Assembly (NCBI RefSeq): GCF_001936115.1
Contig: NZ_MPDM01000002.1
Coordinates: 62,001-126,000 of the forward strand
Length of the DNA: 64,000 bases
Origin: Boudabousia marimammalium
GTDB lineage: Bacteria; Actinomycetota; Actinomycetes; Actinomycetales; Actinomycetaceae
Direction: 5' to 3'
This document shows, piece after piece, positions 12,926 through 18,986 of the stretch. Below the pieces are notes generated by a model. It was not told the origin of the DNA. It did no database searches and saw only the letters and a program-made list of their open reading frames with translations. Position 1 is the first letter of the stretch; each line of letters opens with the position of its first letter. A program made the position numbers and the translations under genes.

Positions 12926-14830
12926 TTACTCAGCGACAGGCGAGTTCTTCGCCACTGTCATCAAGAACTCCATATTTGAGTTAGTATCCTTCAAACGAGA
13001 GAGGACCAGCTCTGCGGCCTCTTGAGTTTCTAGAGCACCAAGGACGCGGCGGAGGCTCCACAGAATCTTAAGCTCCTGCGCTTCGAACAATGCCTCCTCA
13101 CGGCGGGTGCCGGAAGAGTTAATGTCAACAGCCGGGAAAATACGCTTATCAGCTAGCTGGCGAGACAGGCGCAGTTCCATATTGCCCGTACCCTTAAACT
13201 CCTCGAAGATGACTTCGTCCATCTTCGAACCAGTCTCAATCAAAGCGGTAGCCAGAATCGTCAATGAGCCACCACCTTCAATATTGCGGGCAGCTCCGAA
13301 GAATCGCTTCGGTGGGTAAAGCGCAGAAGCATCCACGCCACCGGAAAGGATCCGCCCTGAAGCGGGGGCGGCCAAATTGTAGGCACGACCCAAGCGGGTA
13401 ATAGAGTCCAACAGAACCACTACGTCTTGCCCCAGCTCCACCAGACGTTTAGCACGCTCAATGGCTAGCTCAGCTACCGTGGTGTGGTCAGAGGCCGGAC
13501 GATCGAAAGTAGAAGCAATCACTTCACCGCGCACGGTGCGCTGCATATCGGTGACTTCTTCGGGACGTTCATCCACGAGGACGACCATCAAATGCACTTC
13601 GGGGTTGTTCACCGTAATAGCGTTAGCAATCTGCTGCAAAACAATCGTCTTACCGGCCTTAGGCGGGGAGACGATCAGACCACGCTGCCCCTTACCAATC
13701 GGAGCGAAGAGGTCAATCACGCGCGGGGTAATGGCTTTAGCGGTGGTTTCTAGGCGCAGCTGCTCATTCGGATACAGGGGAACCAACTTAGAGAACTCAA
13801 CGCGCTCTTGCGCCTGTTCCGCATCCATACCATTAATGGAGTCCAAACGAACCAGAGCATTGTACTTCTGGCGGGGCCGCTCCCCTTCCACAGTGGGACG
13901 GACAGCACCCTGGATGGCATCACCTGAACGCAAGCCCCAACGTCGTACCTGGCCCAAGGTCACGTAGATATCGTTCAAACCAGGCAAGTAGCCGGAAGTA
14001 CGAATGAAAGCATGATTGTCACGAACATCCAAGATACCGGCAACCGGCACTAGGTTGTCATTGCGGTCATCTGCAGACTTATCTTCATTATCGCTTTCAT
14101 CGCGATCATTGTTGCGGTCGCTATTGCGCCCGCGACGGTTATTGTTACGATCGCGACGGTTATTGTTGCGGTCGCGGCCACGGCGGCGGCGGGTGCCGCG
14201 CTCATCATCATCGTCATGACCATTGGTGGAGTGCTCCTCCGGAAGCGCAATCTCATCGAGAGACTCAACCTTGTCCCGGCGACGCCCACGTGAACCAGAC
14301 TGCTCAGTGCCATCTTCGCGCTTTACTGACTGCTTATTTTCATTCTGCGTGTTATCACTAGAGTCATTAGTTCCGGAAGCCTTGCGCTTCGCCTGAAGTT
14401 CAGCCTTCACGTCAATCTGGACGGCTGGACGGTCTTCGTCCTGACTATGCGGAGCACCAGCCGGGGCACTAGCGCGACGCCGGCCACGTCCACGACCACG
14501 CACCGGACGCTCATGTCCATTTTCACGCGGCTTAGAGTCGCGTGGAGACACTACCTCGGCTTCTCCCCCCTTAGCTTCTACAGAATCATCTGATTTCTCT
14601 GCTAAGACTCTAACTGGCTGGAAACCTTCTGTCTGCTGACGCTTTGGTTTCCGGCCACGTTTCGGGGCGGTCCCTGATGCTACGCGAGCCTCACGGATTA
14701 GATTGATTAGCTCGGGACGACGCAACTTCTCTGTGCCGGTTAGTCCCATTTCTGCAGCTAATTGATGGAGTTGGGCTACACGCATAGCGGAGAGCGGGCC
14801 CGTTTTGTTGGTATTGCTATTGTCGCTCAC
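12926..14830 (-). CDS. rho: transcription termination factor Rho
   Basis: Rho is the hexameric RNA helicase that ends transcription at C-rich, unstructured RNA. The 634-residue product starts with the Rho N-terminal domain ([20 protein letters not shown]). Next comes an Arg/Asn/Asp-rich disordered insert of about 200 residues typical of high-GC Gram-positives. The RNA-binding domain ([20 protein letters not shown]) and the ATPase domain follow, with Walker A PPKAGKT, Walker [17 protein letters not shown] and the C-terminal [10 protein letters not shown]. The leader upstream is rich in small hairpins. The upstream neighbour is the ThrB-like gene, as in other actinobacteria. Confidence 0.97.
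14098..14178 (-). repeat. 21-base tandem repeat coding RRDRNNN in rho
   Basis: CGCGACGGTTATTGTT recurs at 14131-14146 and 14152-14167 with a 21-base period, and degenerate copies lie on both sides. In the protein it gives [21 protein letters not shown] within the disordered insert. This is in-frame repeat expansion in a region of Rho that tolerates length change and is thought to bind RNA or promote assembly. Confidence 0.75.
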
Positions 14831-14993: not shown

Positions 14994-15974
14994 CTAATCT
15001 ATTGTCACTATTTCAGCACCATTTGGGATATGTGTGACACGTCCCGCCTTCCAGCCGGCATTTTGTGCGGCAAAAATGATTTCTTTATTCACCTTTCCCA
15101 GCGCCGCAACCGAGGATCCCAAACCGGCAATGAAGGCCGGTACTTGTGACTGGCGAAGCCACTGCACCATTTCTACAGTGGCCGGGATAACTGGATGCAA
15201 AGCTTCCAAAAGGCCTGGATTATCAGTAACAGTCATGTTCGAAAAAACATCCGCATCACTGTTCAGCAGTTTCGCTCCATACGCAGCAGCCCTAGTATTG
15301 GCGATTTCAACTTGGGATAGATCTAGTGTCGCCCCGCGCGCGGCGGTCACCAAATCAGTAGAGCTAACTTCCGTATCGGGAATGAAAAGGGTAAATACTA
15401 GCGGCTGCACCGGACGCAGATCAGCGATTTCAATCCAGCGTTCACGCGCGCCACCGTTCGCGGCTGGTAGCAGCGCCTGTTCCTCCGGGGTGGCGCCGCG
15501 AGGCAAAGCGAGTTGCACACCCCCACGCATGATGGCGGAGGCCGCAGCAACATTATCTAAGAGGTCCCAAGCTAACTGGTGCATAGTCGCATCTGCAAGT
15601 TCGGGTGGGTTTCCCAAGAATCCTCGCGCCGCCATTAAACCAGCGGTAATTTGAGCGATGCTATCCCCCAGCCCGCGATAGGCCGGGATTGCTCTGCCGT
15701 AATGGATTTCTAAGCCAGCTTGCGGTTGTCCAATCATGTCTATGACATGCCGGAAGGCTCGAACTGTGAGATTCTCGTCGCCTTCGATACGGGTATATTC
15801 ACCCTGTCGGATAGTGACCGTGGTGGGCGCAATTGTCGTGGCTATCCGGACCCGATCCCAGATGCTAACCGCACAGGCCGCCCCACCTGAAGACAGCATA
15901 GCCGAACCCAGCACCCCGAAACCATTGACAGTTGCGGGGATGCGCATGTTTAGCCGAGAATGCTGGTATCTCAT
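14994..15974 (-). CDS. homoserine kinase-like protein with eroded catalytic motifs
   Basis: The 326-residue protein aligns along its length with GHMP-family homoserine kinase (ThrB), and the position just before rho is the usual place of thrB. It keeps IPATVNGFGVLGSAML (13-27), AIPAYRGLGDSIAQITAGL (95-113), the DNVAAASAIMRGG segment and the ATTxxP-like FTLFIPDTEVSST. The key elements are altered. The N-terminal PxSxANLGPGFD is shortened to PATVNGFG. The phosphate loop GLGSSSAA is GLGDSIAQ (101-108). The GHPDN aspartate loop is LLDN (138-141). The C-terminal SGAGPT is AGLGSS (283-288). Kinase activity is doubtful. hom and thrC, normally adjacent, are absent. The frame is intact, so the gene may be retained for another role. 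Confidence 0.75.
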   Translation of the reverse strand: MRYQHSRLNMRIPATVNGFGVLGSAMLSSGGAACAVSIWDRVRIATTIAPTTVTIRQGEYTRIEGDENLTVRAFRHVIDMIGQPQAGLEIHYGRAIPAYRGLGDSIAQITAGLMAARGFLGNPPELADATMHQLAWDLLDNVAAASAIMRGGVQLALPRGATPEEQALLPAANGGARERWIEIADLRPVQPLVFTLFIPDTEVSSTDLVTAARGATLDLSQVEIANTRAAAYGAKLLNSDADVFSNMTVTDNPGLLEALHPVIPATVEMVQWLRQSQVPAFIAGLGSSVAALGKVNKEIIFAAQNAGWKAGRVTHIPNGAEIVTID

Positions 15975-16060: not shown

Positions 16061-17305
16061 TTAAGCGACCGACACTGAAACTCTGTTAATCTCTGGAGCT
16101 GCCTGCGCTTCTCCGGTCATGGGAAGGGCAAGAATATCGCCTACTTGAACATTCCCAGGCACTATCAGTTGCGCTCCCCCACTAACTTCCGCAAGTTGTG
16201 CGGGACTATTAGCAACGCGGTTAGCGAGGGTGGCACAGTAGTCCGGGCACCTTGTGGTTTCCATTTGTTTCCGAGGGGGAATCGGCCCACTCAACATCAG
16301 TTTTAGTGCAGCGCCCGCGGCCTCGGAAGTTTCCTCTACCTTCGTGACTTCCACTAGGGTGACTCCGGCTGAGGCAAAAAGATTCTGACTGGCACAAACT
16401 AGTACCTGCGGGACTTCCTGCTGCTGTTGCTGCGTGTACAGATGCAAAAACTCCGCAGCAGATTTTGCCCAAGTAGTCGGATTAAGCACTGGTTCCACGG
16501 TCGGCAAATAATGCACACCCAAACCATCAGCTAGTTGAATCAGAGTAATCTGCTGGCCCTGCTCAATCAGTTTGCCCCGCAAATCAAGCAGCTGAAAGTA
16601 TGACTCTTTTAGCTTTTCCTCTTGTCTTACCGGTACTGGATAACAGATGCGTAAACCAATCAGATTCCAATTGTTTTGGGACAAAAGAGGCAAAAGCACA
16701 GACCAGTTTTCCTCCGCAAAACCAAGTTTTGCGGAGGATGCCGTAACCGGTATAGAAAGGATAATCTCCCTCTCTGGGGGGAGCTGTAACTCTTCATTCA
16801 GGAGCAGCTTCAAAGCCGCAGACGCATCCAGAACGTACCTCACTAATCCTGCTTCTGCCGCACGATTAAGCAAGGCTGAAGCTTGCTCTCCCTCAGTCTC
16901 CTTTAACACCACCAGAACCTGTTCGGATTTAATCTGCAGGTCTTTGACTACGTCTAGCTGCGCTAAGCTGCTAATCTCGACAAGCAAACCAGATTGAAGC
17001 AGGCTTTGGAGCAGTAACCTTGAAGCAATCTGTTCTATTGGGAAGGAAACTTCAGCGCCGGCCAGACCATAACCGTCCCAGAATTCTTCTCCCCACGCAA
17101 AATTCCATACGGTTGCCCGGCCTTGCAGGTCATCCTCGTCAATAATCCGCAGTGACGGCCCATGCAACTCACGCAACTGTGAGGCAGTAAGGTTCCCGAA
17201 GGTTAGCTCTCCCTCGTCGTTACGGGAAACACTCCACGGCCAAAACCCAGCTAGCTCACCTGGTTGCGGGCAGCTGAAAGCGGCAGGATTACAACTTGCC
17301 GGCAT
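16061..17305 (-). CDS. diaminopimelate decarboxylase-like protein lacking the PLP lysine
   Basis: The 414-residue protein follows argS by 4 bases, where actinobacteria carry lysA, and aligns with LysA from end to end. The N-terminus WPWSVSRNDEGELTFGNL..HGPSLRIIDEDDLQGRA (22-63) matches the usual LysA start, and the C-terminus QLIVPGNVQVGDILALPMTG (379-398) matches the end of the second domain. The active site is gone. The PLP-binding AGKAF reads AGAEVSF (82-88), HSHIGSQ reads RICYPVP (219-225), GGGLG reads ADGLG (259-263), EPGR reads ASQN (305-308), and CESGD reads VSGGAQ. It is either a pseudoenzyme with a binding or regulatory role or a gene in slow decay; no stop or frameshift is seen. Confidence 0.75.
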   Translation of the reverse strand: MPASCNPAAFSCPQPGELAGFWPWSVSRNDEGELTFGNLTASQLRELHGPSLRIIDEDDLQGRATVWNFAWGEEFWDGYGLAGAEVSFPIEQIASRLLLQSLLQSGLLVEISSLAQLDVVKDLQIKSEQVLVVLKETEGEQASALLNRAAEAGLVRYVLDASAALKLLLNEELQLPPEREIILSIPVTASSAKLGFAEENWSVLLPLLSQNNWNLIGLRICYPVPVRQEEKLKESYFQLLDLRGKLIEQGQQITLIQLADGLGVHYLPTVEPVLNPTTWAKSAAEFLHLYTQQQQQEVPQVLVCASQNLFASAGVTLVEVTKVEETSEAAGAALKLMLSGPIPPRKQMETTRCPDYCATLANRVANSPAQLAEVSGGAQLIVPGNVQVGDILALPMTGEAQAAPEINRVSVSVA

Positions 17306-17309
17306 CTAC

Positions 17310-18986
17310 CTACATCCGTTCCGGAGCAGACACACCCAATAGCGCCAAACCATTCGCTAACACCTGGGTAACAGCGTCATTGAGCCACAGCCGTGCAACA
17401 TGCTCCGGCATAACTTCACCCTCACGCGGGGTAACCCGGCAGGAGCCATACCAAGTGTGGTAGGCGCTGGCGAGCTGCTCAAGGTAGCGGGCCACGCGGT
17501 GTTGCTCACGCAAAGTGGCAGCTGTAGCTACAATCTCAGGGAACTGCGCCAAGGAACCCAGCAGCTGGTTATCCGCTTCGGAGCTCAGCATGGCAGGATC
17601 AAAGCCCAGTTCACGTTTGACCCCGTAATTTTCCGCATTTTTGTGCACATTGCGGGTGCGGGCATGCGCGTACTGCACGTAGTAAACCGGGTTCTCATTG
17701 CTGGAAGATGCTAACAGATCCAAATCAATATCGATATTTGAATCCATGGAAGAGCGAGCCAGGGCGTAACGAGCGGCATCCACGCCCACGGCGTCCACCA
17801 AATCATCAAGGGTGACGATGGTGCCGGCGCGCTTAGACATGCGTAGCGGCTGGCCGTTCTTGAGCAAGTTCACCATCTGACCAATAATGATTTCTAGGTT
17901 CTCCTTCGGGGTGTCACCAAACGCTGCACACATCGCGTACATACGGCCAATGTAGCCATGATGATCAGCGCCCAGCAGATAGATGGCGGTGTCTGCGCCA
18001 CGCTCACGCTTGTTCAGGTAGTAGGCAATATCGCCACTGAAATAGGCGGCCTGACCATCTGACTTGATAATAACACGGTCCTTATCGTCACCGAACTGTG
18101 AGGTCTTCAGCCAGACAGCGTTATCGCGGTCTTCAATCACACCGCGCTCACGCAGACGCTCAATCGCTTTGTCGACTGCACCAGAGGTATGCAGGGAATC
18201 CTCATGGAAGAAGACATCGAAATCGGCACGGAACTCGTGCAGGTCTCGCTTAATCTCATCGAACATCAAAGCCACGCCGTTAGCGCGGAAGACTTCCAGA
18301 GCTTCCGTGTCAGGCAAATTGGTCGGGTCAGTCTGGCCGGCTTCAGTAACTAGCTTAATAACTTGTTGCGCAATATCTTCGATGTATTGGCCACCGTAGC
18401 CGTCCTCTGGCACTTCTTGCCCGCGGGCGCGGGCCAGAAGTGAGTGCGCGAAACGGTCGATCTGGGATCCGTGATCGTTGAAGTAGTATTCGCGGGTCAC
18501 CTCTGCCCCTTGAGAGGTGAATAAACGAGCCAGGGTGTCGCCCACAGCTGCCCAGCGGGCCCCACCTAGGTGGACAGGGCCGGTAGGGTTCGCTGAAACA
18601 TACTCTAGGTTAATGCGCTTGCCGGACATGGTTTCCCCAATACCGTAAGCAGGGCCGGATTCCACAATAGTACGAGCCAGCTCTCCCGCAGAAGCAGCTG
18701 ATAAACGCACATTCAAAAAGCCTGGACCGGCCACTTCCACTGCGGAGATGCCAGCTTGTGCGCCCAGCTTTTCTACCAGCAGGGCAGCAAATTCTCGCGG
18801 ATTCATACCGGCACGCTTCCCGAGCTGCATAGCAACATTGGTAGACCAGTCACCGTGGTCACGGTTGCGGGGCCGCTCCACCTTGACCGGATCTGGGACT
18901 GCTTCAGCTTCTAAGTTGAGCTGGCCATCAGCAATCAGTGAGAGCAAGATAGTACGAATTAAAACAGCAAGTTCTGTAGGAGTCAT
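17310..18986 (-). CDS. argS: arginyl-tRNA synthetase
   Basis: This class I synthetase charges tRNA-Arg. The 558-residue product has the N-terminal Add1 domain with [18 protein letters not shown]. The HIGH-equivalent is [20 protein letters not shown] (about 135-154) and the KMSK-equivalent is MSKRAGTIV. The C-terminal anticodon-binding DALR domain ends in [14 protein letters not shown]. It heads the argS/LysA-like/ThrB-like/rho series, and its start is 59 bases from the SGNH hydrolase stop. Confidence 0.97.

Follow-up and report, generated by a model that had tools for sequence, protein, structure and literature searches.

The 414-codon open reading frame (ORF) that lies directly behind argS in the window, the whole stretch of 64,000 nucleotides analysed here, encodes a homologue of diaminopimelate decarboxylase (LysA) whose PLP site, judged from alignments, is lost. 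Our leading explanation, which we put forward tentatively and as close to an even call, is that this former decarboxylase is a pseudoenzyme, still made for a non-catalytic job centred on its N-terminus, and that the apparently dead homoserine kinase (ThrB) encoded next to it is kept in a similar way. As judged from the alignments, the drift null and the codon fits, the protein is an enzyme homologue without catalytic residues that is held by selection, as a pseudoenzyme would be, even though the absolute omega values behind this statement are soft.

Results

The locus and its open frame

The genome that carries the window (G000) belongs to the Actinomycetaceae and measures 1.84 Mb, in an assembly listed as 99.98% complete. 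It was compared with three other members of the same genus (G001, G002 and G003). On the minus strand of the window the gene order is argS, the 414-aa ORF (pseudo-LysA), a 326-aa ThrB-like ORF (pseudo-ThrB) and rho, with the following features:

17310-18986, minus strand: argS, arginyl-tRNA synthetase, the upstream gene (TIGR00456, 398 bits, above cut-off)
16061-17305, minus strand: pseudo-LysA, 414 aa, with PLP-site motifs replaced or deleted (ORF call, profiles, alignments, AlphaFold2)
16976-17305, minus strand: first approximately 110 codons of pseudo-LysA, retained nearly as in live LysA (identity, omega)
17066-17083, minus strand: FWDGYG loop, residues 75-80, a clade-specific insertion ahead of the first barrel strand (pattern scan)
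17033-17035, minus strand: codon of E91, the former PLP-lysine position (alignments)
16631-16651, minus strand: RICYPVP (219-225), replacing HSHIGSQ (alignments)
14994-15974, minus strand: pseudo-ThrB, 326 aa, with the first and second kinase motifs and EGHPDN altered (TIGR00191, alignment, AlphaFold2)
12926-14830, minus strand: rho, transcription termination factor, the downstream gene (Pfam Rho domains)

A sequence-only reading of this DNA had described a stop-free frame of 414 codons in the position that lysA takes after argS, and both points hold: the minus-strand frame is open (in the plus strand, the frame that starts at 16061 contains stops) and follows argS after a gap of 4 nt. The argS-lysA spacing is tight in all four members of the genus. 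A scan for promoters and terminators returned sites no more numerous than in shuffles.

Loss of the LysA active site

Against the lysA profile TIGR01048 the window protein scores 30.9 bits over residues 28-326, below the curated cut-off of 297.9, and against PF02784 it scores 22.4 bits (23.4 in the genome scan; cut-off 23.4). We defined 74 invariant columns on 29 motif-intact LysA proteins from related actinobacteria, where "motif-intact" and "dead" are labels given from sequence alone. Of these columns 14 are kept in the window protein, 10 in the G001 copy and 20 in the copy from Actinomyces vulturis. In the window protein the AGKAF motif of LysA aligns with P89-I93, which puts E91 where the PLP lysine stood; the G001 and A. 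vulturis copies have S there. The earlier claim that the PLP lysine is gone is thus correct whichever alignment is taken; its location is not, since AGAEVSF (82-88) is not the AGKAF column. The reported change of HSHIGSQ to RICYPVP and the losses of the GGG loop (ADG, 259-261) and of EPGR (CASQ, 304-307) were borne out by the alignments. CESGD is absent as well, through deletion of its segment and not through replacement: alignment with relatives shows that this segment and about 50 C-terminal residues are missing. The homology to LysA, described earlier as running from the first domain to the last, is therefore real and not quite full length. Nine motif-intact copies measure 462-505 aa, and the two degenerate copies of the genus 381 and 414 aa.

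The LysA fold had also been proposed for this protein, and a structure prediction is compatible with it, showing a PLP barrel followed by a beta domain at the C-terminus. AlphaFold2 with an alignment of 32 sequences gave a model with a pLDDT of 85.3 and a pTM of 0.85, and its best PDB matches in Foldseek (5x7n, 5x7m and 1hkw, TM about 0.7) are the LysA proteins of Corynebacterium glutamicum and Mycobacterium. The alignment included live LysA, and live homologues steer such models, so they show compatibility with the fold and not folding.

Parts of the lysine pathway are missing

Pseudo-LysA is the sole PF02784 match in the G000 assembly, so that the search for a canonical lysA suggested by the earlier reading found none. 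Homoserine dehydrogenase (Hom), DapB and DapF gave no match in the G000 genome, and the G001 genome likewise yielded no match to these three or to PF02784; its degenerate LysA is too diverged for either PF02784 or TIGR01048. G002 and G003 have an intact LysA at the argS site, DapB and DapF, with Hom elsewhere in the genome. MurE was found in all 11 genomes searched.

We took the dapA/dapB and dapF neighbourhoods from G002 and G003 and found their flanking genes again in G000 and G001, DapA being searched at its syntenic site only. Tblastn of the syntenic stretches found nothing better than E 0.04 for dapA, dapB or dapF, and at the expected places of the three genes nothing better than E 0.1. 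The gaps left between the aligned parts of the flanking genes in G000 are 170 nt (dapA site), 76 nt (dapB site) and 32 nt (dapF site). In G001 the dapA and dapF sites are closed (54 and 48 nt), and the dapB site is 1.17 kb without a recognisable dapB. Since no remnant was found at these sites, useless pathway genes do get removed in these genomes, yet lysA and thrB at argS-rho stayed. Hom, which is found between lysA and thrB in many relatives, is absent from that place in all four genus members.

A second dead-looking enzyme next to rho

The earlier reading had overlooked that the neighbouring ThrB looks, from its sequence, as dead as LysA, and that other members of the family repeat the pattern. 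Against the homoserine kinase profile TIGR00191 the ThrB-like ORF scores 41.1 bits (cut-off 168.25), and the homoserine-kinase motifs PATSANLGPGFD, GRGLGSSAA and EGHPDN of motif-intact relatives are altered in it. Twenty motif-intact enzymes define 48 invariant columns; of these, 20 survive in the window copy and 13 to 28 across the ten degenerate copies found in the family, among which those of A. vulturis and S3PF19 are the least changed. All four genus members share a six-residue insertion in the first motif, which therefore seems to have been lost in their common ancestor. The AlphaFold2 model (pLDDT 87.4) has mycobacterial and corynebacterial homoserine kinases as its best PDB matches.

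No ThrB over the cut-off was found in the G000 genome. A motif-intact second ThrB lies away from argS-rho in G001 (L142, G001:C4, 6885-7838), G002 and G003 (L143, 8087-8989, and L144, 8470-9399). In G002 and G003 this second ThrB lies near Hom, which is on the opposite strand; G001 retains it while Hom was not found there, an enzyme apparently without its supplier.

Open degenerate copies recur in the Actinomycetaceae

We surveyed the family by profile search of the ORFs around argS and rho, which could see open frames only, together with ORF lists, and re-scanned 15 stretches that follow argS or precede rho, 10 of them extending as far as rho, with stops translated as X. An open degenerate ThrB lies directly upstream of rho in the four genus members, A. 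vulturis, the MAG S30M_Sa_63, Arcanobacterium sp. S3PF19, G018, G048 and G026. By the simplest count on the argS+rho tree these are six lineages; five is the safer number because backbone support is 30-46 in places. An open degenerate LysA is present in four lineages, namely G000, G001, A. vulturis (537 aa) and S30M_Sa_63 (359 aa). Within the genus the two LysA losses look independent, because G000 pairs with G003 (UFBoot 94) and G001 with G002 (UFBoot 100), and both sisters have an intact LysA. A single loss in the genus is disfavoured by this tree and by the PLP-lysine site, where G000 has E and G001 has S. Separate conversions of this kind in a small number of relatives suggest that the protein, though dead as an enzyme, retains some role.

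Clean absence of lysA from argS-rho is as frequent as, or more frequent than, a pseudo-LysA there. It was seen in at least eight species (G026, G027, G029, G032, G033, G047, Mobiluncus curtisii and Arcanobacterium S3PF19); argS stands directly before rho in G033, and an opposite-strand ORF occupies the place of lysA in G027 (L170, 3290-4042, between argS and rho). Because so many species lack lysA there cleanly, pseudo-LysA is dispensable in the family. G018 and G048 also have no lysA at argS-rho, with a LysA match elsewhere in the genome. Across 213 genomes of the family, LysA scores above the cut-off in 176 and not in 37, of which 27 are without any match at E 0.01; the argS-rho interval was seen in only a minority of the genomes without a match.

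Several relatives show further variants of the locus. The whole A. vulturis unit (L048, 9680-13821) seems to be going over together: its degenerate LysA is enlarged to 537 aa, its Hom is low-scoring with an intact N-terminal loop, and its ThrB reads GLGRDAA for GLGSSAA. In G032 (L172, 11257-12540) only a Hom-like ORF lies between argS and rho, with an N-terminal loop GSSNVA where relatives have GxGTVG, and no ThrB over the cut-off was found in that genome; this ORF is possibly a dead Hom on the same theme. Two ORFs take the place of lysA between argS and hom in G029 (L084, 10514-12374), which we take, from their sequence, to resemble arginine deiminase and an ArgR-type regulator.

A purely mechanical reason for open frames must be weighed here. 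The argS, lysA, thrB and rho frames probably belong to one putative transcription unit, in which the dead genes could serve as a translated spacer: missense changes would be free, while stops and frameshifts would be purged lest untranslated RNA allow Rho to halt transcription ahead of the downstream gene, and the product would be merely harmless. We consider this possible, with the balance against it. It fits the observations that all ten pseudo-ThrB and four pseudo-LysA frames are open and upstream of rho, that the spacing behind argS is tight throughout the genus, and that the re-scan of the 15 stretches showed no frame-broken remnant, the sign of decay for which the earlier reading had proposed to look in relatives. 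The pseudo-thrB of G018, however, is open beside rho although an opposite-strand ORF (L166, 3735-4445) separates it from argS. Clean deletion was moreover open to these genomes, since Hom is gone from the middle of the unit in the four genus members and lysA from it in eight other species. The spacer reading does not explain why this route, taken for hom and the dap genes, was not taken for lysA and thrB.

Replacements are more conservative than an open frame demands

We compared the dead copies with a null in which sequences drift with only stops forbidden (100 simulations per LysA and 60 per ThrB copy), run to an identity about 0.02 below the observed one, a small bias that favours the pseudoenzyme reading. 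Matching the G000-G002 LysA identity required about 0.43 substitutions per site and the rejection of about 20 stop mutations, a load that agrees with a translated spacer. The replacements themselves are more conservative than the null. For the G000 LysA the BLOSUM replacement score is -0.44 (null -0.77±0.10), the fraction of hydrophobic residues at conserved hydrophobic columns 0.72 (null 0.56±0.05) and GC1-GC2 0.22 (null 0.10±0.03), each reached by 0 of 100 simulations; the core-over-exposed hydrophobicity contrast is borderline (0.40 vs 0.27; 6 of 100). The G001 and A. vulturis copies point in the same direction (0-1 of 100 for the first three measures; 0 and 3 of 100 for the contrast), and a first version of the null agreed. 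A spacer that needs only to stay open does not predict such conservative replacements.

For ThrB the same test gives a mixed case. In nine of ten copies the replacement score exceeds the null (0.033 or less; S30M_Sa_63, 0.117); the hydrophobic columns do so in five (0.017 or less), the core-over-exposed contrast in two, and GC1-GC2 in two (below 0.05).

The invariant columns behave in the opposite way. The G000 LysA keeps a fraction of 0.29, fewer than the null (0.44±0.03), and all ten pseudo-ThrB copies fall below the null mean. Loss of invariant functional positions beyond the drift expectation weighs against an enzyme with changed chemistry or cofactor that no longer needs PLP, as does the failure to find DapB and DapF, which make the substrate. 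The persistence of the LysA fold, as modelled, would suit such an enzyme. So would the D and S that G001 and A. vulturis both have at the first A and K columns of the PLP-lysine motif, which could be parallel changes; G000 has P and E at these columns. We give this reading very little credence.

Codon models and the retained N-terminus

Codon likelihood was fitted on the four genus members with branch lengths anchored on argS+rho (omega = 0.046), because with free lengths the fits are not identifiable and branches run up to the bound or close to it. Saturation of synonymous sites makes the absolute omega values below soft. Pseudo-ThrB has, after its loss, an omega of about 0.25 within the genus (0.17-0.32 by branch), or 0.07 with free lengths and branches at or near the bound; when branch lengths are left free in both models, fixing omega at 1 costs 62 log units relative to a single free omega. 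Pairwise fits on rho point the same way (0.09-0.41 in five pairs). For the whole LysA, omega is 0.067 on live branches, 0.345 for G000 and 0.574 for G001, and with free lengths at the bound 0.024, 0.157 and 0.117, respectively.

This constraint is unevenly distributed along LysA. Over the 109 N-terminal codons omega is 0.16 for G000, 0.29 for G001 and 0.09 on live branches, and over the other 244 codons 0.46, 0.79 and 0.06. In the C-terminal part of G001 an omega of 1 costs 2dlnL 3.6, which is not significant, and neutrality is not rejected. Identities follow the same division, with the cut at residue 110 set after viewing the conservation profile: the dead copies retain more of the N-terminal part than of the rest in G000-G002 (50/109 vs 75/295, Fisher p 1.5e-4), G001-G002 (45/110 vs 48/252, p 2.3e-5) and A. 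vulturis-A. ruminicola (43/108 vs 77/336, p 0.001). The S30M_Sa_63 copy compared with G025 shows no significant difference (28/90 vs 50/213, p 0.2), so that the bias is present in three of four dead copies. Live pairs have no N-terminal excess (G002-G003, 60/110 vs 209/357) or differ in the opposite direction (G002-G025, 50/106 vs 223/356, p 0.005). A rotation control was weak: counting the unrotated arrangement, 3 of 30 rotations reach the contrast. That the N-terminal segment is conserved as DNA or RNA is ruled out by its third positions, which differ at 0.65-0.71 in dead-live pairs. They are near saturation in both parts of LysA, and therefore selection acts on amino acids. A spacer does not predict this N-terminal retention either.

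Ordinary decay, in which both genes would be pseudogenes whose frames are open by chance and which will follow dapA, dapB and dapF, draws on the same numbers. The C-terminal omega of LysA is 8- to 13-fold above that of live branches, the two degenerate copies of the genus are shortened, and several relatives have lost lysA wholly from argS-rho. On the other side, the 0.43 substitutions per site of the G000 copy would be neutral under decay and would have brought some 20 stops; none is present, in four lineages, and pseudo-ThrB has remained open since before the genus split with an omega of about 0.25. We regard decay as decidedly improbable, and both it and changed chemistry as less likely than the pseudoenzyme and spacer readings, which could also both be true at once. 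The dN/dS near 1 by which the sequence-only reading would have recognised decay applies to one part: in the G001 copy the last two thirds, toward the C-terminus, are indistinguishable from neutral. Its broader claim of selection is supported by the open frame, the amino-acid pattern and the codon fits.

Discussion

A proposed non-catalytic job centred on the N-terminus

The N-terminal part that is retained extends to about the first barrel strand and contains a W..YG loop, which is present in the LysA of one part of the Actinomycetaceae, is kept in all four dead copies and was absent from those copies of Arcanobacterium, Trueperella and Cellulomonas that the pattern scan covered. In barrel enzymes the loop before strand 1 lies on the face away from the active site. 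A tie between this loop and the retention of dead LysA is suggestive only: G029, G032 and G018/G048 are without LysA at argS-rho, though their relatives (Winkia, G036/G014 and L040, respectively) carry the loop.

In the pseudoenzyme reading, LysA catalysis would have been lost as the lysine pathway was dropped, while the protein continued to be produced. Its non-catalytic job would depend mainly on the N-terminal approximately 110 residues, including the clade-specific W..YG loop, which would precede barrel strand 1 on the side that does not face the PLP site. This job would probably involve the binding of a partner, for which ArgS, encoded just upstream, would be a guess. We infer the expression, folding and binding of the product from the patterns described above. 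A more ambitious version, which we think unlikely, would make the N-terminal residues and the loop, in one part of the Actinomycetaceae, an interaction module with a second, non-lysine job, perhaps with ArgS, that outlives the enzyme and turns a single-copy gene into a pseudoenzyme in place in several lineages once the pathway has gone. ThrB beside rho would behave likewise, and argS-rho would be a repeated pseudoenzyme nursery.

If the pseudoenzyme reading is true, these loci are replicated natural experiments in the passage from a metabolic enzyme to a non-catalytic protein and hint at second roles of LysA and ThrB. If the translated-spacer alternative is right, Rho-dependent polarity shapes gene decay.

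Comparison with known systems

With LysA itself (TIGR01048; PDB 5x7n, 1hkw) pseudo-LysA shares its place after argS, its predicted fold and its descent. It differs in having no PLP lysine, HSHIGSQ, GGG, EPGR or CESGD, in its shortened C-terminus and in a genome where DapB and DapF were not found. Antizyme inhibitor and the trypanosome prozymes are dead relatives of polyamine-metabolism enzymes that act by binding, and the first of these had been offered earlier as a parallel. Their targets are an active relative in the same cell or the regulator of that relative, whereas no active LysA-type protein was found in G000. With no such LysA there to be regulated the parallel fails, and regulation of this type is ruled out. 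The cell-wall role that had also been suggested is not supported by this analysis. Among GHMP kinases, yeast Gal3 and worm XOL-1 are pseudoenzymes, and pseudo-ThrB resembles them in keeping the GHMP fold, here a predicted one, without the kinase job.

A bacterial case with an operon neighbour is the streptococcal NADase nga. There, activity was lost by missense changes, early stops or truncations were not observed, and the inactive protein is reported to bind and stabilise the product of its operon neighbour (PMC5596348). The nga case involves point changes in one species and a known partner, whereas pseudo-LysA has undergone wholesale motif loss over several species.

The matches listed in the open-licence literature, a scope that takes in few subscription papers, include no report of a LysA or ThrB pseudoenzyme. 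Pseudoenzymes are an already known kind of protein; the unusual part would be the repeated conversion, in place, of single-copy neighbouring enzymes. They are usually pictured as derived from a spare duplicate. Here, as far as the genomes compared suggest, the sole copy of an enzyme of primary metabolism seems to have been converted where it stood, more than once, as its pathway vanished.
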